Assembly: GCF_000303155.1 (NCBI RefSeq)
Contig: NC_018719.1
Location: 2,170,001 to 2,234,000, forward strand
Source of the DNA: Candidatus Nitrososphaera gargensis Ga9.2
Lineage (GTDB): Archaea; Thermoproteota; Nitrososphaeria; Nitrososphaerales; Nitrososphaeraceae
Direction: 5' to 3'
DNA length: 64,000 bases
Part shown: positions 4,816 through 61,522 of the stretch, piece after piece
Position numbering within the stretch: the stretch's first letter is position 1
Layout of the letters: each line of letters starts with the position of its first letter
Translations under genes and position numbers: made by a program
Notes under the pieces: generated by a model
Database searches by the model: none
The model's input: only the letters and a program-made list of their open reading frames with translations
What the model was told of the DNA's origin: nothing

Positions 4816-6033
4816 GTGAGAACCCTGCCAATCCAGTGCGGTACATTTACCCAAGAACCTACCGACAAACATTTTTTGACACATGAGAGAGTACTTGGTA
4901 ATGCAGTAAACGTACTGCTGCCAGTCTTCAGGCCAGCCGATTTCAGAAAAAGGCGGTATTCAGTAGTCGATATAGCAAATTCTGTGGTCTATGCCTGTAC
5001 CGGTGGGACATCCATAACACAAGCCTGCTGTACTCTGGCCAGCACCCCGTCCAGGAGGGATGTCCAGTACCACGTGTCCAAGATTGACATTTCGTGGATT
5101 CAGTCGGCCGCCAACAGGCTGCTGCAGAAAAGGGTGGCGGAGACCCTGCACAATCGAGCTGTCGACATAGCCATCGACATGACAGACGTTCCCTACCACG
5201 GCGAGCCTGAGAATGAGGGGGATGTCAGACGCGGCAGGGCCAGGAGCGGCACGACCCACTTTTTCACGTACGCCAGCGCCTACGTGATGCTCCATGGAAG
5301 GAGGTTCACCTTGGCCACCAGGTACATCCGGGAGGGGGAAGCACTGGTTGGAGTAGTCAGGTACCTGCTTGCAGAGGTACAGAAGGCGAGCATCGTGATA
5401 AAATGCCTGTTCCTTGACAAGGGGTTCTTTACAGCAGCTGTAATGAGCTACCTCAATTCCATGCGTATCCCGTACATCATAGCCGCTTTTCCAAGAGGCA
5501 GGAAAGGCGGCACGTTATCCAGACTGACCCGGAAAAGAAGGGATAGTTTCGTCGTACCGGACTGCGAAATGACAGATTCTGCCACCGGCGAGAAATGCAC
5601 ATTCAGGCTGTATGCCGTTGCCAAATACCGGAAGAAAAGGTACAGGAAGAAACGCGGCGTCCAGTACATGTACTATGCCGCAGGCCTTGTCAATATCCCG
5701 GTAGGGCGGATGTTTGACGAGTACCGGAGGAGATTTGGCATAGAATCGTCATACAGGGCGATGGGAAAGAGCAGGGCCAGGACGTCATCCAGGAGTCCAG
5801 CACTGCGCTTCCTCTATGTTCTGGCATCGCTTGTTATACAGAATGAGTGGGTGTACATCAAGTGGCAGTACCTCAGCAAGGCGACGCGCGGAAGGTACGG
5901 GAGAAGATACGATGCAGAATTTACGTACTTTCATATGCTGCTTTTTCTGCGGCTGGGACTGGAGCAGAAATACGGCGCGGTGTACTCGGTACAGATCAAA
6001 AACAGCAGGTCAGTTATAATTGATGGTGGCTAA
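4816..6033 (+). CDS. ISH3-type DDE transposase
   Basis: A 405-residue transposase. DDE residues are plausible at D121 (AIDMTDVPYHG), D201 (CLFLDKGFF) and E310 (RRFGIESSYR), the spacing and context of the ISH3 family and related IS4-like enzymes of archaea. A basic linker precedes the last beta strand. The GTG start follows the leader hairpin. The stop codon overlaps the right terminal repeat. Base composition is more GC-rich than the surrounding accessory DNA, fitting recent arrival. The frame is uninterrupted, so the enzyme could be active. The family name is from motif memory. Confidence 0.85.
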   Translation: MRTLPIQCGTFTQEPTDKHFLTHERVLGNAVNVLLPVFRPADFRKRRYSVVDIANSVVYACTGGTSITQACCTLASTPSRRDVQYHVSKIDISWIQSAANRLLQKRVAETLHNRAVDIAIDMTDVPYHGEPENEGDVRRGRARSGTTHFFTYASAYVMLHGRRFTLATRYIREGEALVGVVRYLLAEVQKASIVIKCLFLDKGFFTAAVMSYLNSMRIPYIIAAFPRGRKGGTLSRLTRKRRDSFVVPDCEMTDSATGEKCTFRLYAVAKYRKKRYRKKRGVQYMYYAAGLVNIPVGRMFDEYRRRFGIESSYRAMGKSRARTSSRSPALRFLYVLASLVIQNEWVYIKWQYLSKATRGRYGRRYDAEFTYFHMLLFLRLGLEQKYGAVYSVQIKNSRSVIIDGG

Positions 6034-7768: not shown

Positions 7769-7942
7769 ATGTCCAGCAAGGAAAGTAAGCGTGAAATACT
7801 CAGTGTCAGCCCAATGAGTCACAAGTTTCAGATTACTATTGCAAAGAAGGTAAGAGAGAAACTAAAGCTGAAAGGCGGTGATTCTATAGCTTTCATTGAA
7901 GAAGGCGGCAGGATATACATCGCAAAAAGTACTGACGTTTGA
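7769..7942 (+). CDS. AbrB/MazE-type DNA-binding protein
   Basis: A 57-residue protein. From MSHKFQITIAKKVREKLKLK through GGDSIAFIEEGGRIYIAKS it matches the SpoVT/AbrB swapped-hairpin pattern: polar strand, basic helix (KKVREKLKLKGGD), then a glycine turn and a final strand. Such proteins act as transition-state regulators or as antitoxins of PIN-domain toxins. No PIN-like toxin is encoded next to it; the following gene is an orphan. It could regulate the accessory element or be an orphan antitoxin. Confidence 0.75.
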   Translation: MSSKESKREILSVSPMSHKFQITIAKKVREKLKLKGGDSIAFIEEGGRIYIAKSTDV

Positions 7943-8864: not shown

Positions 8865-9116
8865 TCAAAGACAAGTACGGGTTATTCCAGAGGCTGGGTC
8901 ATGAATTGACCTTTCGCATCTTTCGCAGATTCCTTTTCTTGGATCATTACCTGGCTTGGCACAATGCACGCACTTGTCTATTCTGATCCTGAGCTTGTTA
9001 TGCTTGATATGAGTGATGATGTTATAGCAGCGGCGACATCTGTTTTTAAGTTGTTTTGTTTGCTCCCTGCAAGAAGAGCAGAGTTTGGCAAAGAATTGTG
9101 TAAGGTCATATTCCAT
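8865..9116 (-). CDS. Double zinc-ribbon small protein, last gene of HNH cassette
   Basis: An 83-residue basic protein with four CxxC pairs (CSSC, CRRC, CVHC, CERC), enough for two zinc sites. The chosen ATG gives an 11-nt overlap with the HNH gene; an earlier methionine at 9146 would give 41 nt. Small proteins of this kind often bind nucleic acid or act as adaptors. It is the most downstream member of a five-gene chain with overlapping or near-touching start and stop codons. Confidence 0.65.
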   Translation of the reverse strand: MEYDLTQFFAKLCSSCREQTKQLKNRCRRCYNIITHIKHNKLRIRIDKCVHCAKPGNDPRKGICERCERSIHDPASGITRTCL

Positions 9117-9981
9117 GTGGTCTTTGACTTGTTGTCTTATCCTCATTATTCACTAGCACCTTTGTCATTCCCCCAAGTTCTTTCTGAATCTGCTCTTCAG
9201 TGAGTCCGTACTTTGTTTTCAGAAGTTTTTGGAGTAATTCAACCTCAAGGCATTTCTTGTTAAATGATTTTGTTAGTTTCTGCTGCTGCTCTTCAGTTTC
9301 TTTTAGCTGCTCTGCCTTTGCAAGTAATTCCTGTTCCTTCTGCCTTTTCTCTTCTTCTGCCTTTGCAATTCTTTCCTTCATTATCTGGGAGTCCAGCTGC
9401 CCCAACCTTGATTGTAGAGAAGGGCTATAGCCATCTCTCAAAAGTATGTAATCTTTGTTCTGAAACTCTTCAATCTTGAATGGCCCTGCTAGTGAACATG
9501 CTTTCATTATGTGTCTTCTTGATGTTACTGGGCTGCAATCCGCCTTCTCTGCCGATTCATTGACAGCATCTTCAACTGTCAAGCCTTCTGATCTTCCGAT
9601 ATTTTCCCATAGATAACGCCGTACTGTAGGTTCTGAATCCCTGTTGATTTCGATTTCAAGGGGTGCTTTTTTTATCCTTATTCTGTCTCTGTACTGCTCG
9701 CTGTCTGTTGCTTCTGCATTTGTATTCACACACACACTTTTACCACTTGACACCGAACCCTGTTGGCAATAATCAGGCCGCTTGCGCTGATTGCAGGAAT
9801 AGCAGACAAAGCCTATGTTCTCAGGGCTATAATCAGCTTTATCCCCGTTATGATGTTCTATGACTCCTCCATTCTCTGTCTTGTCCTTTTTGCAAATCTT
9901 ACATTTTCCGTCTTGCGATACCCATAGTAAATGCTTAATCAGTCTTTGCTGCTCTGCTCTGGTTGGGCTGTACTTTGCCAT
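9106..9981 (-). CDS. HNH-type zinc nuclease domain protein
   Basis: A 291-residue protein. Residues ~15-70 form a treble-clef/HNH-type domain: HLLWVSQDGKCKICKK, then GVIEHHNGDKADYSPENI, then CYSCNQRKR. The EHH and the later Asn sit where catalytic and metal residues are expected. The middle part may hold a winged helix (TVEDAVNESAEKADCSPVT). Residues ~200-260 are a long charged coiled coil rich in Lys, Glu and Gln. The chosen start lies 1 nt after the upstream stop; a GTG- or ATG-type start at 9996 would overlap it. It could be a homing-type endonuclease, a defence nuclease, or a packaging or replication protein of the element. The domain call is firm; the role is open. Confidence 0.75.
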   Translation of the reverse strand: MAKYSPTRAEQQRLIKHLLWVSQDGKCKICKKDKTENGGVIEHHNGDKADYSPENIGFVCYSCNQRKRPDYCQQGSVSSGKSVCVNTNAEATDSEQYRDRIRIKKAPLEIEINRDSEPTVRRYLWENIGRSEGLTVEDAVNESAEKADCSPVTSRRHIMKACSLAGPFKIEEFQNKDYILLRDGYSPSLQSRLGQLDSQIMKERIAKAEEEKRQKEQELLAKAEQLKETEEQQQKLTKSFNKKCLEVELLQKLLKTKYGLTEEQIQKELGGMTKVLVNNEDKTTSQRPHGI

Positions 9982-9982
9982 T

Positions 9983-10159
9983 TTACTCACGCTCACACAC
10001 TGTCAACATGTCAAGCGGTTCTACTGTTATCGCAATTTGCAAGAACCCTGCCAGTACCAGATTTAGAAATTCGTCTGATATTCTGTACTTGCCCTGAAGG
10101 ATTGCTGAGCGAATATCAGCAATCGTTTTATCGTTGGAAGTGGAATTCCCTTCAGTCAT
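9983..10159 (-). CDS. Small orphan protein in HNH cassette
   Basis: A 58-residue protein (begins MTEGNSTSNDKTIADIRSAI). It has a mid-length hydrophobic stretch around FLNLVLAGFLQIAITVE that could be a core helix pair or an amphipathic anchor. Its ATG overlaps the previous stop (ATGA), and its stop lies 1 nt from the HNH start. This coupling is the main evidence that it is real. Family not recognised. Confidence 0.55.
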   Translation of the reverse strand: MTEGNSTSNDKTIADIRSAILQGKYRISDEFLNLVLAGFLQIAITVEPLDMLTVCERE

Positions 10160-10284
10160 GAAGCAAAACCTCCTACGTCAGCCCATGACGTATGGTAGTA
10201 CCATCCTTGTTCATGACTGCGGCCGCTAGATTCAGTCCTGGCTTGGTAGGCAGGGATTGAATCTAGTGTGCTAAATCCTCTCAT
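10156..10284 (-). CDS. Very small protein in HNH cassette
   Basis: A 42-residue protein (begins MRGFSTLDSIPAYQAR), rich in aromatic and polar residues. ATGA overlaps occur at both its ends, with the 50-residue gene upstream and the 58-residue gene downstream, and a GGTGAG lies before its start. It contains the strong inverted repeat at 10226-10266, so selection on this stretch may be partly on structure. No known family. Confidence 0.45.
   Translation of the reverse strand: MRGFSTLDSIPAYQARTESSGRSHEQGWYYHTSWADVGGFAS
10226..10266. repeat. Inverted repeat inside the HNH cassette
   Basis: CTAGATTCAGTCCTG and CAGGGATTGAATCTAG are near-complementary arms (9 contiguous pairs, then 5-6 more with one bulge) around a 10-nt loop. 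As RNA it would form a long hairpin covering part of a tiny coding region. It could be a recombination or replication site, or an RNA element controlling the downstream nuclease gene. Confidence 0.5.
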
Positions 10285-10433
10285 CTTTTGCTCACCTTTC
10301 CTGCTGGTCTGATCAGCTTTACATTTTTCCGAAACATAGGGCAAGTCGCAAAAAATTGTGACTGCCCGATGTATTCCAACTCATTATCGCATGTTACTGA
10401 TCTTGGTGTCTTGACAAGTTGTTGACTTGCCAT
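10281..10433 (-). CDS. Small basic protein, first gene of HNH cassette
   Basis: A 50-residue basic protein (begins MASQQLVKTPRSVTCDNELE) with two cysteines. A start at 10463 would add an arginine-rich N-terminal extension. Its TGA overlaps the ATG of the next gene. It is the most upstream gene of the coupled chain. Function unknown. Confidence 0.45.
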   Translation of the reverse strand: MASQQLVKTPRSVTCDNELEYIGQSQFFATCPMFRKNVKLIRPAGKVSKR

Positions 10434-10954: not shown

Positions 10955-12445
10955 TTATCTCTTAACCTTTGCTGCCTGATAAGCGAATTGTACTTTAACT
11001 TTTCCACCTGCCATTTTTGTTATGGTCATGTCCATATCTCGTTTCATGTCACTTGCAACTTTCTCAAGCTCAGAGCTTTTTAGGGCCATCATCAATTCAT
11101 CTATTGTCATACCGTCTGGGCTGGCAGATACCAATGAAGCAAATCTAGTAATATGATGCATACTGTTGAGCTCTGCTTCTATTTTCTGTTGCCTTTTTTG
11201 CATTTCCTCAAGCTGCTTCTTCATCGAATCCTCTTCTTCTTTTATTTGCTGGAATCCCCTTTCAGTGAGTGGATAACTGCATCTTGAACATATATCATAT
11301 TCGAGAGGATTCACTTCTTGACATCTTGGGCAATTGCTTATTACAGCTCTAGGTTTCGATTCTTGAACGACTATGCCATCATGAGCGAGAATGGTATTTA
11401 CAACATCCTTACTAAGTGTCTGTGCCATGTACTTTGATGCCTGTCTGGTATTAGGTACCCATCTGACTTTTTGTGTTAGTGCAAAATGTGAAAGATAGGT
11501 TGCATCCTCACGTATTGCAGAAGTCCTAAAGCAATACGGGTTCCATTTCTTTGTTCTAAGTAGAAACTCAAGCTTTTCCCTTTCCTTCTCGTCTTTGATG
11601 GCTCCCGTTTCAACCAGCTTCTTTATCCTCTTCTTGAGGTTGTCGGTTATTCGCCAGATGTAGTCAGGATCGAGGGGTTCGCCTAAATGATCGCTTCTCG
11701 TATTGCAGAATAATGGAGCTTCAGGATCGTTTCTGAATGGATGTTCAAGTTTCCACTTTAAAAGATAGGAGAAGGCCATCCTCAGTACAGCAGGGCCGCC
11801 GCCCGTCTTTGTCTGAAACGGTACCTCAGCCAAAGCGCATTTTTCTAAGTACCTAACGTTCTTGTTTTTCATCTTTGCTGCTTCATGATTCCTACCGTCT
11901 AAATCCCACAGAGTTGCAATTATGGCTTTGTTTCGCATCTTGATCTCATATGGCAGGATAGTTAGTATTTCGTCTCGCTCCCATGTCTCGCTGACAGAGT
12001 ATGTATTTTTTCGCTTTGTCTTTTGCTTCTTTATCCTTACAAAGTCTGGTGTTTCCCAATCCTCTATTGGAACTTCATCACTAGCCTTACCCTTCATCTT
12101 TGTGTTATGAAGCCACCTGAAAAAGTGGATCAGCCTGCTTCGATAATCGTTCCATGTTGTTACCCATTTCTCTTCAGGATCTTGCTTTGCTGTCTTTCTA
12201 TATTGGTTCAGGAAAGGCAGTATGTGAAGCTCTCTATTGTTTACTTTGTACAGCGTCATTGATGGATATTTGCTGGCTAACCACTTGGAATAATAGATAA
12301 TTCCCTTGAGGTTGTTCTTTCGTCTGCTCTCGGAAATCCTATTCAGCTCATGAAAGGCGTCGTATTCTTTAACTAGCCTTGCATTTATACGGCTTTGTAC
12401 TTCGCTCTGAATCTTTGATTGCAGAGTTGCAAGCGTTATCGGCAT
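10955..12445 (-). CDS. Tyrosine recombinase (integrase) with zinc ribbon and coiled coil
   Basis: A 496-residue integrase. An N-terminal SAM-like core-binding region is followed by a catalytic domain with likely R185 (DLDGRNHE), R307 (NPYCFRTSAIR, the HxxR box with a non-His residue) and nucleophile Y339 (RQASKYMAQTLSKD). A zinc ribbon follows (CPRC at 372, CSRC at 386), then a coiled coil (~397-435). This layout is seen in thaumarchaeal integrases. Its 5' end lies about 130 bp from the 3' end of tRNA-Lys, so this gene probably integrated the element to its left. The frame is intact; the atypical HxxR box deserves checking. Confidence 0.85.
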   Translation of the reverse strand: MPITLATLQSKIQSEVQSRINARLVKEYDAFHELNRISESRRKNNLKGIIYYSKWLASKYPSMTLYKVNNRELHILPFLNQYRKTAKQDPEEKWVTTWNDYRSRLIHFFRWLHNTKMKGKASDEVPIEDWETPDFVRIKKQKTKRKNTYSVSETWERDEILTILPYEIKMRNKAIIATLWDLDGRNHEAAKMKNKNVRYLEKCALAEVPFQTKTGGGPAVLRMAFSYLLKWKLEHPFRNDPEAPLFCNTRSDHLGEPLDPDYIWRITDNLKKRIKKLVETGAIKDEKEREKLEFLLRTKKWNPYCFRTSAIREDATYLSHFALTQKVRWVPNTRQASKYMAQTLSKDVVNTILAHDGIVVQESKPRAVISNCPRCQEVNPLEYDICSRCSYPLTERGFQQIKEEEDSMKKQLEEMQKRQQKIEAELNSMHHITRFASLVSASPDGMTIDELMMALKSSELEKVASDMKRDMDMTITKMAGGKVKVQFAYQAAKVKR

Positions 12446-12576
12446 GTGGTTGCAGCTCCTTTGAATGAAGTTTTCTTGCCTATAGCCTTGATCTGTCTCT
12501 TTTGGAAAGTTTTGCCGCCGCTAATATCCTTCTGGTGAAAAAATTTACCAGTGGTTATTAGAACCCGATAAGTGAG

Positions 12577-12666
12577 CGGGCCCGTCGGGATTCGAACCCG
12601 AGACAGCCGGATTTCTTTCTATTGCAGTTAAAAGTCCGGTACTCTACCTGGCTGAGCTACGGGCCC
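12577..12666 (-). tRNA. tRNA-Lys (TTT) with a 16-nt intron
   Basis: The acceptor arms GGGCCCG/CGGGCCC, D arm, anticodon stem CCGGA/TCCGG with loop CTTTTAA, and T arm TCGGG-TTCGAAT-CCCGA are all intact. Sixteen extra bases (CTGCAATAGAAAGAAA or a shifted equivalent) sit after the anticodon loop at the canonical 37/38 position, so this is an archaeal tRNA intron. The 3' end points at the integrase gene and is the likely attachment site. A TATA-like TTAAATTA lies about 25 bp upstream. Confidence 0.93.
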
Positions 12667-12759: not shown

Positions 12760-13575
12760 GTGCAATCTACTCAAAAGAAGTCCTATTTCGCTATAATAGT
12801 CATTGCTTCAGTAGCCCTTGCTTGCGCGGTCGCCGCTCCAATCATGCTGCCGTTTGTAAAGGTGTCGCCTGCAAACCCGGAGAACTTGTACGTCATCTAC
12901 TATGGGCATCTGGTTGATGAAAACGGCGCGATGACTGATCAGGCATCAAGGATATTGGCAGCCAAGCCCGAGCTCGTGATAGTGCCGCACTCTTTTCCCG
13001 ATGGCGAGCTTAACCTGACACCGGACGTGCGCTGGCAGTTCAGCGAAGCAGACATCAAGGTGCTGACGTACACTTGGACGGATTACGGCGCGCGTGACTT
13101 GAACGCTGTCAGGGCCGACATTGACAGCCAGATGGCGTCAGGAGTTGACGGCATATTTGTGGATGAAGTGACCAACATCGAAACGGACGCCGAGCACAGC
13201 TACTATGCCGCAGTCTACCAGCATATCAAAAGTCACGGGCAGGACAAACTCGCCATAATGAATCCCGGCCACTACAAAGTGAATGAGAGCATAATGCAGA
13301 TCTCCGACATCGTCAGCCTAGAGGAAGAGTGGGTGTACCACGACCAGATATCGTGGATGGACAAGTACCTGCCGTCGCGCTTCATGGGGGTATCGAGCAA
13401 TGAATACTGCACAGCCTGTATCAGCGAGTCAAACGCCATGAGCAAGACTGCAGAGGCATGGAGCGCAGGCATAGGATACCACTTTTCCACAGACAAATAC
13501 ATCGACCTACCGGCATGGTTTGACAGCTATGCTTTGCAGGTGGAAGAGGAAAGAAAAGCTAGGCAGCAGTCATAG
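12760..13575 (+). CDS. Secreted spherulin-4-like (TIM-barrel glycosidase-like) protein
   Basis: A 271-residue protein with a GTG start and an N-terminal hydrophobic signal or anchor (residues ~9-30). The rest matches the spherulation-specific family 4 pattern: LYVIYYGHLVDENG at the first strand, GVDGIFVDEVTN with paired acidic residues at mid-barrel, IMNPGHY, then EEEWVYH. The family is related to glycosidases acting on alpha-1,4-linked galactosamine-type polymers; activity here is unproven. The gene at 50839 is a longer paralogue. It is probably extracellular and may act on surface glycans. Confidence 0.8.
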   Translation: MQSTQKKSYFAIIVIASVALACAVAAPIMLPFVKVSPANPENLYVIYYGHLVDENGAMTDQASRILAAKPELVIVPHSFPDGELNLTPDVRWQFSEADIKVLTYTWTDYGARDLNAVRADIDSQMASGVDGIFVDEVTNIETDAEHSYYAAVYQHIKSHGQDKLAIMNPGHYKVNESIMQISDIVSLEEEWVYHDQISWMDKYLPSRFMGVSSNEYCTACISESNAMSKTAEAWSAGIGYHFSTDKYIDLPAWFDSYALQVEEERKARQQS

Positions 13576-36492: not shown

Positions 36493-37844
36493 ATGGTGCG
36501 GTATGAACAAGATCAAATACCTGCCTTAAAGCCTGTTCAGAGCTTTTTTAATGGCAAAAGAATGGACAGCGATTCCATATACAACTATACAACCAAGATA
36601 CTTTCTATCAAGAGGCGGCTAGAGCAGTTTGACGATGATGATAAAACAGGAAATGGTAAAGTTGCATCAGAGTTCCTAGACGCACTTGGCGACCACGGCC
36701 TATCCAAGGGCAGGGTCGTCTATTATGCCGCAAGGCTACCAATTATCATGCAATGGTTTGCGAGCCGCCGAATAATATTAAAAATGCTACTAAAGACGAT
36801 TGCAAAGATTGCGTGAGGAGCATAATATCTGATAAAAAATATGCCGGCAAGACAAACAGGGCTTTTGCAGAGGCGATAAAGAGGCTTGTACATTTTGCCA
36901 AGGCGGGGGAGATAGGGGAAAAGAGGGATGGAAGAGACTATGTCCCCGAAGTATCGTGGATAAGGCCAGAAGTATATGTCAAGAACGGCCGGAAGAGGGA
37001 GATAAGGCCCGGGGACCTACTCACCGGGGAGGAGATCGAAGCTTTGCTGGATGCCATACCAAAGATAAGCAGGTTTCCCGGCAGGGACAGGGCCATGGTG
37101 ATGTGCCTCTATGAAGGGGCGTTCAGGCCCGGCGAGCTTTTGAACATGACTGTTGGCGGAGTACTATTCAAAGACAAGGTCGCCGTGGTAACGACGGTAG
37201 GCAAGACAGGCGAAAAGACGGTGCCTCTGTTGCTGTCGTACAGGCTGCTGCTTGACTGGATAGAGCAGCACCCCTTCAAGGACAACTTGGACGCTCCCTT
37301 GTGGTGGTCATTTGCAACAGGCAAGGGCGTTGGCTACGGGTACCTCCGCAAAGTGGTAAAGAAGGCGGCTTTAGAGGCAGGGATAAAGAAAAAGGTCTGG
37401 AACTATCTGCTGAGGCATACCAAGCTTACAGACGTTGCAAAAAAGCATCCTGACCAGATACTCAAGAGGTTTGGCAACTGGAAGAAAGGAACGGAGATGA
37501 TGGACGTATACATCCACCTCAGCGAATCGGACCTTGAGGAAGCCGTTTTGAAGGAGCATGGCCTGCTTCCAGAAGGCGGGAAAAAGAACGGGCTGGCCCT
37601 CAAGACATGTCCAAGGTGCGGCGAACAGAATGCAGGGGCAAAGAGGTGTACCAAATGCGGCTACATAATCGACGAGAAGCTGGCAATCAAAATAACACAG
37701 AGGGAGCAGAGCACGCTTGAAGGACTGACTAGAACGGTAAAGGAGCACGAACACGTACAGAAAAAGATATTTCGGATGCTGGAAGAGCTGATGATGACCG
37801 GAACAACGACAAAGAAGGCAGTCATCAGCTCTCCTTCTGCCTGA
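36493..37844 (+). pseudogene. Frameshifted tyrosine recombinase at tRNA-Leu
   Basis: Two overlapping frames together encode one integrase with zinc ribbon. The N-terminal SAM-like part runs from MVRYEQDQIPALKPVQSFF to PIIMQW, and a frame change near 36755 leads into EPPNNIKNATKDD and the catalytic part. The latter keeps all key residues: R in AFRPGELL, YLLRHTKLTD, and the tyrosine in MMDVYIHLS. A C-terminal CPRCGEQ...CTKCGY ribbon and coiled coil match the integrase at 10955. The gene begins 14 bp after tRNA-Leu, its probable attachment site. Programmed frameshifting is possible but unproven. Confidence 0.8.
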
Positions 37845-50838: not shown

Positions 50839-52317
50839 TTGAAGCTAAAAGGATTCCTAGCTATGCTATTCCTGTCGTTTCTTTCATCTTCTACTGTAAT
50901 TGCTGCTGCCCCGGAGCAGGGAACGACGACGACCGCGTATAGAAAATTTGTCGTCTATTATGGATGGTACACTGATGGCAGGGGACAGATTGGCCCTGAA
51001 ATAGAAAGGATAATCGCGGCCAAGCCTGAGTTTGTCATAAGCCCCTACTATACCTCTACAGGGCAGGTAAATCTCACGCCGCAAGTGATGGACAGGTTCC
51101 ATGAGAACGGCATCAAGGTCTTGGTCTACGTCGCCACTGGCAACGCGGACAAAAAGCTTGAAAGCGTGCTGCAAGAGATCAAGATCGGCCTTGACAACGG
51201 GGCAGACGGCGTGATGCTAGACGAAGTCGCGATGCTTCACTCTGACTGGCAGGTGGATTATTACAAAAGGATCTATGACTACACAAAGTCGTTTGGCAGC
51301 GAAAAGGTGGTCATTGCCAACCCCGGCAGCGTGCTGGTCAACGAAAAGGTGATGTCAGTGAGCGACATTGTGTCGTTTGAGCACCAGTGGCGCTTTGCGT
51401 CCCATATTGACTGGTTCTCGAAATACCCGGCCACGCGCTTTATGGGGATCTCGAGCAACGACATTACAAACGTGATGGGGTACACAGTTGACAGTGAGTC
51501 ATCTGCAAGGGACACAATTGAAGCGTGGCAGGCAGGGGTCAGCTACCACTTTTCAACCAACACCTACACCACCCTCGCGCCTTGGTTCGAGGAATACCAG
51601 AAGGCGCTTGAAGATTATGCCGTTTCAGGCAGCAAGCTGGGCGAGCTGCGCGTCAGGACAATTGACTCTGAAGGCGGTGAGATAAACGGGCTTTGGATCG
51701 AAGTCAGAAAAAATGATAGAGTGGTCATGACCGGCTTTAGCCCTACTAGGTTCCTGCTCCCAGAGGGCGAATATCAGGTAGGAGCAGGCAATTATCAGAG
51801 CTTTATCTTTGACAGGTGGCAGGACGGCGAAACGTCGCCCTATCATAGCACGACGCTTGCAGATTCCTCCACCGCCGAGCTTGTCGCAGTGTACAGGAGC
51901 GAGCTTGCAAACCTTCGAGTGGAAAGCTACGACAACCTCGGCAACAGCATCAGAGAAATGCGGGTGACTGTCAGCGGTAGCGACGGAGGCGTGGTGGCAG
52001 AGGGCGTTACGCCGCTTAACCTGCGGTTGACCCTAGGTCAATATTCAGTCGTCGCCTCGGATTCTGAGCATTACCAATTTGCCCGGTGGGATGATGGCTC
52101 GCAAGTGCGGACGACCAGCCTAGCTGGTGACGCCAAGATAACAGCCTATTACGACAACATGCTTGCAGATAAGCTTGGCGCTGAAATCTTTAGCTGCCCC
52201 CCCAAGTATCAGCAGCAGGTGGCCGACTCGATGCTCAAATCCGGGCCCTTTGCCGGCCTGCTTGAACTTCAGATGAGAAAGAGCGCGATGGCTTTGGCAG
52301 GCTGCCCCGTCCAGTAG
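50839..52317 (+). CDS. Secreted spherulin-4-like protein with two C-terminal repeats
   Basis: A 492-residue protein with a signal peptide (~residues 3-22) and a spherulin-4 TIM-barrel domain (to ~265): VVYYGWYTDGRGQIGPEIER, GADGVMLDEVAM, VIANPGS. Two ~85-residue beta repeats follow, each with a turn FDRWQDGETSP or FARWDDGSQVR, similar to PEGA-type surface domains. It is the longer paralogue of the gene at 12760. Probably cell-surface glycan related. Confidence 0.82.
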   Translation: MKLKGFLAMLFLSFLSSSTVIAAAPEQGTTTTAYRKFVVYYGWYTDGRGQIGPEIERIIAAKPEFVISPYYTSTGQVNLTPQVMDRFHENGIKVLVYVATGNADKKLESVLQEIKIGLDNGADGVMLDEVAMLHSDWQVDYYKRIYDYTKSFGSEKVVIANPGSVLVNEKVMSVSDIVSFEHQWRFASHIDWFSKYPATRFMGISSNDITNVMGYTVDSESSARDTIEAWQAGVSYHFSTNTYTTLAPWFEEYQKALEDYAVSGSKLGELRVRTIDSEGGEINGLWIEVRKNDRVVMTGFSPTRFLLPEGEYQVGAGNYQSFIFDRWQDGETSPYHSTTLADSSTAELVAVYRSELANLRVESYDNLGNSIREMRVTVSGSDGGVVAEGVTPLNLRLTLGQYSVVASDSEHYQFARWDDGSQVRTTSLAGDAKITAYYDNMLADKLGAEIFSCPPKYQQQVADSMLKSGPFAGLLELQMRKSAMALAGCPVQ

Positions 52318-60359: not shown

Positions 60360-61522
60360 TTGTTTTGTTTCACAAAGGATTTGCAAACATACAAGTTCAG
60401 ACTGTATCCAACAGAACAGCAAATCAAAGTCATGAATGAAACCATTGAAATTTGTAGGCATCTATATAATGATTCACTTGGGGAAAGAAGTAGCAATTGG
60501 AGTGTTGGATTCTACGAACAGAAACAACTATTGACTTTGAGGAGGCAGGATAACAAATACTACAAGCAGGTACATAGCCAAGTACTGCAAGATATCGTAC
60601 TTAGACTTGACAAGGCATATCAGGCGTTTTTCAAAAAATATCTGGGTATCCAAGATTCAAGCGAAAAGAGAGGTACATTCTTCCACATACCCACAATATA
60701 GAGGTTTTAGAATTAGAGATAACAAGCTAGCACTATCCCACATAGGCGCAATAAAGTTCAAGATGCACAGAATACCAATTGGTAAGCTGAAAACATGCAC
60801 CATAATTATAGATATAGACCAATGGTACTGCTACATAGCTACAGATGATGGTATTGAAGAGATTGATGTCAAAGCAGATACGAACAAGCCTGTCAGAATA
60901 GATGTTGGTTTACTGAACTCGCTCACTCTGAGTAATGGCAAAGTAATACAGAATTCACTTGATTTTGAAGCTCAAGTAACGAAAATTAAGCATCTGCAAA
61001 AGAGTCTATCTCGAAAGCAAAAGGATTCCAAGAACAGAGAGAAGGTAAAGATATCTCTTGCAAAAGCATGTAGAAAAATCAGGCGGCAAAGAGATGATTT
61101 TGTACACAAAGCATCAAAGCTGCTAGCAGACGAATACACGCTCATTGTATTTGAAAAACTGAACATCAATAACATGGTCAAGAACCATTCTCTAGCATCA
61201 GCAATAATGGATATATGCCACTTGGGGAAAAAGCTGCGCGAATATACACTGCCTACAACGTAGAAAAGCGCGGCGGACAAGTTATTCTTGTCAATCCAAA
61301 TGGTACTCGCAGAAATGCTCAAGATGCGGGACAGTTGCTAAAGAAAAGCTTGACCTTGACGAACGTATCTTTGAATGTCATAGCTGCGGTCTAGTCATTG
61401 ATAGGGACTGGAATGCAGCTATTAATATTCTGAAATTGGGTCTGGAACAGGCCTATGCTGAGAAGCAGCAGAGCGCCTCTACTTGTCAAACGGATAAGCA
61501 AGTTTGCTTTGAGGAGGTATGA
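60360..61522 (+). pseudogene. TnpB (IS605-family OrfB) with frameshifts
   Basis: Three frames together spell a full-length TnpB. Segment one is YKFRLYPTEQQIKVMNETIE to the region of KKYLGIQDS; segment two has RIDVGLLNSLTLSNG and VFEKLNINNMVKN (catalytic Asp and Glu regions); segment three has the zinc finger CSRCGTVAKEK...CHSCGL and the last Asp in DRDWNAAINIL. Breaks fall near 60660, 61250 and 61300. No TnpA gene is present. It is a recently inactivated RNA-guided-nuclease-type transposon gene; the guide RNA usually lies over its 3' end. Confidence 0.85.

Follow-up and report, generated by a model that had tools for sequence, protein, structure and literature searches.

An integrase-linked HNH–winged-helix protein family in Nitrososphaeria mobile elements, with a DNA motif on either side of the HNH-coding segment

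The cassette described here occupies positions 8865–10433 of the window, which is a stretch of 64,000 nucleotides from the genome of Candidatus Nitrososphaera gargensis Ga9.2 and to which all coordinates refer unless they are given as genome positions. All five ORFs of the cassette lie on the minus strand, and their tiny-to-middle sizes as well as the overlapping start and stop codons which join them were confirmed by coordinates as given in the original prediction: ORF A (10281–10433, 50 aa), ORF B (10156–10284, 42 aa), ORF C (9983–10159, 58 aa), the HNH gene (9106–9981, 291 aa) and ORF E (8865–9116, 83 aa). The A/B and B/C junctions are ATGA overlaps, ORF C is separated from the HNH gene by a 1-nt gap, and the HNH gene overlaps ORF E by 11 nt. 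Shine–Dalgarno (SD)-like sequences can be read upstream of ORF B (GGTGAG) and ORF C (GGAGGT), and a TATA-like AATATAAAAG is found about 50 nt upstream of ORF A. The true start of ORF E may be an in-frame ATG further upstream at 9146, preceded by a weak SD-like AAAGGTG, in which case the protein would contain 93 aa (8865..9146) and the overlap with the HNH gene would reach 41 nt. Several homologues of the HNH gene start with GTG (GTGAGTAAAATG, encoding VSKM) behind the SD sequence GGAGGTG, and the gene in the window also has an in-frame GTG upstream, so it is possible that the protein starts a few codons before the annotated position, which would turn the C/HNH junction into an overlap.

The frequency of such chains by chance was estimated from 3000 dinucleotide shuffles of the A–C region with 300 nt added, a chain being defined as three ORFs, each 40 aa or longer, which follow one another within 20 nt. 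Chains appeared in 5 shuffles (0.2%) when only ATG was accepted as a start and in 41 (1.4%) when ATG, GTG and TTG were accepted, which makes the arrangement mildly surprising and not extreme for a feature chosen from the whole window. With regard to codon bias, the annotated frame is clearly the best one for ORF A and weakly so for ORFs B and C, with ORF E being uninformative. The four small ORFs probably share a transcript with the HNH gene and are probably coupled to it in translation.

Judging from its sequence, ORF A belongs in decayed form to a family of small zinc-ribbon proteins that is common in Nitrososphaera genomes (E values from 3e-5 to 1e-2) and has the pattern CPxxxC..HEWxYxGxSKFYASCPxC, in which the second knuckle has been lost (CPMF) and the metal site is partly gone. 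ORF E is Cys-rich, and its double zinc-ribbon nature, originally predicted, is supported at a sub-threshold level (DZR_2, E=4e-4). No relatives of ORFs B, C and E were detected among the 400 genomes of the class; the class-wide matches to ORF E were weak (E>5e-4), most of them running across stop codons, and were dropped. Neither were orthologues found for ORF E in viral contigs or for ORF C in genome contigs. ORF B may not be a functional protein. It houses a 13-nt inverted repeat (CTAGATTCAGTCC/GGATTGAATCTAG, 10226–10266) with an ordinary RNA fold energy, and a structured RNA was rejected for this ORF (z=-1.55, without a match in Rfam).

The location of the cassette in an integrated element was borne out by attachment repeats and an integrase. 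The element is a low-GC stretch of 25.2 kb integrated in a tRNA-Lys gene and bounded by the 3′ part of this intron-bearing gene beside the integrase. The attachment repeat GAGCGGGCCCGTCGGGATT lies at 12574..12592 in the 3′ end of the tRNA-Lys gene, and the second copy of this 19-bp tRNA end, found at genome position 2157393, sets the element size. The integrase-like gene (10955..12445, minus strand) is located upstream of the HNH gene on the same strand. Beyond the att-like repeat at 2157393 there is a broken second copy of the integrase (genome 2156338–2157255), which is probably a remnant of tandem integration with the left element decayed. The element carries genes coding for a family B DNA polymerase (PF00136, E=1e-35), a Rad51/RadA-like protein (Rad51, E=2e-5) and an N6/N4 methyltransferase, and a pair of small paralogous ORFs (genome 2162995–2163529) separates the polymerase gene from the Rad51/RadA-like one. 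A cryptic element of N. gargensis, NitGar-E5, has been described as possessing PolB, two small paralogues and an inactivated RadA in one operon together with an integrase (Krupovic et al. 2019, PMC6563490), and by gene content, namely the PolB operon with its two paralogous small genes and RadA/Rad51-like gene in an integrase-bearing element of this same genome, the element described here matches it. The difference is that the main-text passages compared are silent on the HNH–winged-helix gene and on the motif described below.

Several other features were observed in the window. Within the element, a 57-aa MazE/AbrB-like antitoxin is encoded at 7769–7942 on the plus strand (PHROG 10557, E=1e-7; MazE, E=2e-4), for which no toxin gene partner was identified, and a DDE transposase gene with a GC content of 54% (4816–6033, plus strand; DDE_Tnp_1, E=1e-4) is inserted in the surrounding sequence of 40% GC. 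A second tyrosine integrase gene (36753–37844, plus strand; PF00589, E=6e-15) indicates another possible integrated element. A TnpB/OrfB-like gene (60360–61263, plus strand; OrfB_IS605, E=9e-19) is split between two overlapping frames and is possibly frameshifted. Two related predicted secreted proteins are encoded at 12760–13575 and 50839–52317 on the plus strand, the first matching Spherulin4 and the second resembling it by eye.

According to the AlphaFold model, the product of the HNH gene consists of an HNH domain (residues 8–74), a disordered linker (74–105), a winged helix (108–181) and a coiled coil (190–284), the last corresponding to the long coiled coil that had been predicted from the sequence. 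The pLDDT values exceed 90 across most of the HNH domain and are also high for the winged helix. Foldseek placed the HNH part next to the HNH domain of Nme1Cas9 and the Gme HNH nickase (E 0.03–0.07, probability about 1) and the winged helix next to Fur, MecI and Cdt1-C, with no PDB match to the protein at E≤0.001. The beta-beta-alpha metal fold of the HNH superfamily is recognizable in both the model and the Foldseek matches, and there is a weak profile match to 1u3e. The window protein taken alone falls below the cut-off for PF01844 (E=0.029), while 15 of 18 family members match this profile, with the best E value of 6e-6. In the alignment of the 18 members C27, C30, N55, C63 and N64 are invariant and H43 is nearly so, in agreement with the superfamily signature CxxC ... 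[ED]H ... N ... CxxCN. The PF01844 matches and the conserved C-C-H-N-C-N residues support the HNH nuclease identity proposed originally; the domain is predicted to be Zn-stabilised and of the H-N-N type, and it would be expected to be catalytically active.

The family is scattered over about 39 of the 400 class genomes (profile search, E≤1e-8), and no relatives of the HNH protein were found among phages, plasmids and IMG/VR sequences. The closest relative, with 43% identity, comes from a genome of this genus (G137), and the element encoding it has several further genes in common with the one in the window. Among the 40 loci compared, L186, L191 and L199 lack the catalytic His, while L200, L201, L202, L203 and L206 have no HNH domain and keep the winged helix. 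By alignment inspection, both the HNH and the winged-helix domains divide into the same two groups. Two variant arrangements were also seen: L190 (7697–8994) carries a tandem pair of family HNH genes, of which the upstream member has no winged helix, and a 183-aa ORF on the minus strand of L200 codes for a winged-helix relative joined to an N-terminal part resembling an integrase core-binding domain and not HNH.

The conserved neighbour of the family gene is an integrase: an integrase-like gene lies upstream on the same strand, ending less than about 1.6 kb away, in 20 of the 40 loci, and a convergent integrase gene is situated downstream in four more. Neither this linkage nor the motif described below figured in the original prediction. 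HNH nucleases are also carried by thaumarchaeal casposons, which are mobile elements reported from this group of archaea in PMC6563490; casposons, however, possess Cas1 and terminal inverted repeats, whereas the HNH–winged-helix family goes with tyrosine integrases, and the element in the window ends with the tRNA att repeat and the integrase. A literature search that covered few subscription journals returned no paper on this family or its motif. The HNH–winged-helix proteins, to which the window member adds a coiled coil, constitute an undescribed, integrase-linked family in Nitrososphaeria mobile elements.

At the homologous loci, a TG/AG-rich motif (TGTGTGAGAGAGAAA or TGTGTGTGAGTAATA) is located directly 5′ of the HNH start and occurs again in the linker-coding stretch, with the two sites being about 260–380 bp apart. 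In the window, the 5′ copy TGTGTGAGCGTGAGTAAAA (9981..9999, minus strand) abuts the HNH start from upstream and doubles as the coding sequence for the C-terminus of ORF C, and the linker copy TGTGTGTGTGAATACAA (9720..9736, minus strand) lies between the HNH- and winged-helix-coding parts. A single occurrence of the core TGTGTGAGNGNGAG was counted in the genome of 2,833,868 bp, and the two copies of the window are the only group I sites in the 25.2-kb element. The loci form two subgroups with respect to the motif. In group I, to which the window locus belongs, both copies are direct, with the consensus TGTGTGTGAGTAATA; in group II the upstream copy is inverted and the linker copy is direct. When 12 or more of the 15 positions had to match TGTGTGAGAGAGAAA, 50 sites were counted in the 39.8 kb made up of the family genes and the 400 nt preceding each (1.26/kb) versus 30 in 531 kb of surroundings (0.056/kb), which is an approximately 22-fold enrichment. 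Genome-wide, TGTGAGNGAGA is near chance (0–7 per genome, with controls often giving 0–2), so the motif is not a general repeat, and none of the 61 viral-contig matches to a 22-nt pattern of the motif carried the family.

Since the consensus had been picked after seeing the data, a leave-one-out test was used, in which upstream copies were scored with a position weight matrix for which only the other loci's linker copies were used, and linker copies with a matrix built from the upstream copies of other loci against synonymous-codon shuffles. The upstream copy was detected in the inverted orientation in group II (Fisher p=5e-15; other orientation, 0.53), in the direct orientation in group I (p=3e-7; other orientation, 0.34) and at the window locus itself (p=0.007), and the linker copy exceeded the synonymous-codon expectation in group II (p=1e-10), group I (p=1e-3) and the window (p=0.03), the group II values being strong and not exact, given the limit of 300 shuffles for each locus and the relatedness of the loci. 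The motif is read in different frames in different linkers, giving LSCERES in one case and NFVRERN in the other (TGT GAG AGA versus GTG AGA GAG). It is retained in the linker of L199, where the HNH domain is dead, and in the HNH-less L203; this links the motif with the winged helix and favours binding over cleavage.

The motif is not uniform across the family, and copies have no clear presence in a sizeable minority of loci, for example L175, L184, L188, L191, L192 and L194. The upstream copy of group I overlaps the conserved GTG start and the VSKM N-terminus, so its conservation could be partly translational or at the protein level. Coevolution of the two copies within a locus was set aside as weak, the copies being slightly more alike within than between loci in group II (p=0.019) and not in group I (p=0.59). 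Pairing of the two copies at the RNA level was rejected as well: it fits the inverted arrangement of group II and fails for the direct one of group I, for which reason binding at the DNA level is preferred. The winged-helix-only gene of L201 begins with GTGAGCGAAC, in a similar SD context, at the place where the 5′ and linker copies of group I would join; its start looks as if left by deletion between direct repeats.

The family, its domain layout, its linkage to integrases and the position of a motif conserved at the DNA level are computational observations, and self-binding is suggested by a winged helix being encoded beside a conserved motif of the same gene. Our preferred, still tentative reading, to which we assign a probability of about 0.45, is that the protein attaches through its winged helix to the motif sites of the gene encoding it, as a means of autoregulation of a nuclease residing in an integrated element. 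The winged helix would recognise the short TG/AG motif both near the HNH start and in the stretch coding for the permissive linker. Occupation of the two sites would most likely enable the protein to repress its gene or keep its output down, possibly by looping, so that the integrated element would contain little of a DNA-cutting enzyme. Nicking or cutting of DNA by the HNH domain might then occur in mobility, in replication or in competition with related elements. We infer the motif binding, the autoregulatory outcome and this role of the nuclease alike. The upstream copy is sometimes located within the preceding ORF of a coupled operon, namely in the window and at L170, and not in an obvious promoter, so a classic promoter operator misfits some loci, and a single operator mode leaves the difference between the inverted upstream orientation of group II and the direct one of group I unexplained.

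As the main rival, the motif pair could instead be a cis-acting nick, cleavage or origin site in the gene of an initiator, at which nicking by the HNH domain would set off replication of the element or its excision. The precedent is ori-lambda, which sits within the lambda O gene and consists of initiator-binding repeats in the initiator's own gene (PMC5043065); the likeness lies in a DNA-binding protein having its sites inside its own gene, although lambda O is an unrelated protein with no nuclease and its repeats form an array, whereas the window gene has two dispersed sites. The confinement of the motif to the HNH gene within the element and the integrase-adjacent position of this gene would fit such a role, as would the description of many small cryptic elements without an obvious replication protein, for which winged helix-turn-helix proteins have been proposed as initiators (PMC6563490). 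On the other hand, there are just two sites and no iteron array with an AT-rich unwinding region, the element carries a PolB operon of its own, and the motif is retained where the HNH domain is dead (L199) or absent (L203); we regard an origin or nick site as doubtful. We hold in similar doubt the suggestion that the HNH segment is a self-recognised DNA module, with the winged helix binding identical signals on its two sides and with this cis arrangement, inverted in one of the lineages and direct in the other, serving as the protein's own substrate for cleavage, recombination or origin firing.

The motif copies might also bound a mobile or deletable HNH module which is inserted, inverted or removed by recombination or homing, the winged-helix-only variants being its products. 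The copies flank exactly the HNH-coding segment, HNH-less winged-helix genes do exist (L200, L201, L202/L203 and L206), and the L201 gene begins at the expected junction of the two copies; nevertheless, no inverted or excised allele was seen, the copies are short and divergent among loci, and the division of both domains into the same two groups gives no sign of independent swapping; we find a module of this kind quite unlikely. Homing endonucleases of the I-HmuI type, to which the weak profile match to 1u3e relates, combine HNH with C-terminal DNA-binding domains. The window protein resembles them in having HNH followed by a helix-turn-helix-type specificity domain and in residing on a mobile element, but no intron or intein was seen in the HNH gene, and the motif is found at both ends of the HNH part, not as the half-sites of one interrupted target.

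Another possibility is a nuclease for superinfection exclusion or restriction, similar to the wH-HNH type IV enzymes SruGXI and HHPV4I or to PtuB of Septu. Modification-dependent nucleases of 224–283 aa composed of a winged helix and HNH are described as encoded by archaeal genomes and viruses (PMC10101028, PMC11037411), and the window protein shares with them the two domains within one chain and a similar length. The element's methyltransferase and weak PADLOC matches to PtuB and ZorE through the HNH domain point in the same direction. In those enzymes, however, the winged helix is N-terminal and HNH follows, which is the opposite of the order found here; the window protein has an extra coiled coil, no PUA/SRA domain and no DpnI_C match, and several family members with a degenerate or lost HNH domain still keep the winged helix. 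Neither does the available text of the two reports mention a motif within the enzymes' own genes. In comparison with Septu, the resemblance extends to PtuB-type HNH matches, and the neighbours are small ORFs and an integrase, with no adjacent PtuA ATPase. We consider restriction or exclusion improbable, and the defence module offered as one option in the original prediction found no evidence at this locus, the PtuB matches being weak and the PtuA partner missing.

The least probable reading is the one originally favoured, that the five-gene operon is a single functional unit with the small proteins as obligate partners of the nuclease: the overlapping chain is somewhat improbable by chance, ORF A is a recognisable zinc-ribbon relative and at L177 and L178 a small zinc-ribbon ORF is tightly coupled to the family gene, but ORFs B, C and E have no relatives, no gene set is common to the other loci, and dozens of loci, that of the closest relative in G137 among them, have the HNH gene but not these small genes, an outcome which the original prediction had itself named as refuting and which largely refutes such a system. 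The small neighbours differ from locus to locus, some being zinc-ribbon genes and some being joined by ATGA (L177, L178), and small double-CxxC genes stand beside the family gene in 9 of the 40 loci versus 16% of background windows, with no enrichment; the five-gene arrangement is thus local. From comparison of sequences, ORFs A, B, C and E appear to be element-specific passengers and not parts of a conserved machine.

Most integrated elements in ammonia-oxidising archaea are cryptic as to their replication and control genes, and a recurrent integrase-linked HNH–winged-helix family with a DNA signal in its own gene provides a concrete handle on how such elements are regulated or start replication. 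It also illustrates that a linker-encoding stretch can bear a conserved DNA signal besides its coding role. If the HNH segment did prove to be a self-recognised module, it would add, for archaea, a novel type of mobility or replication signal that lies within a gene.
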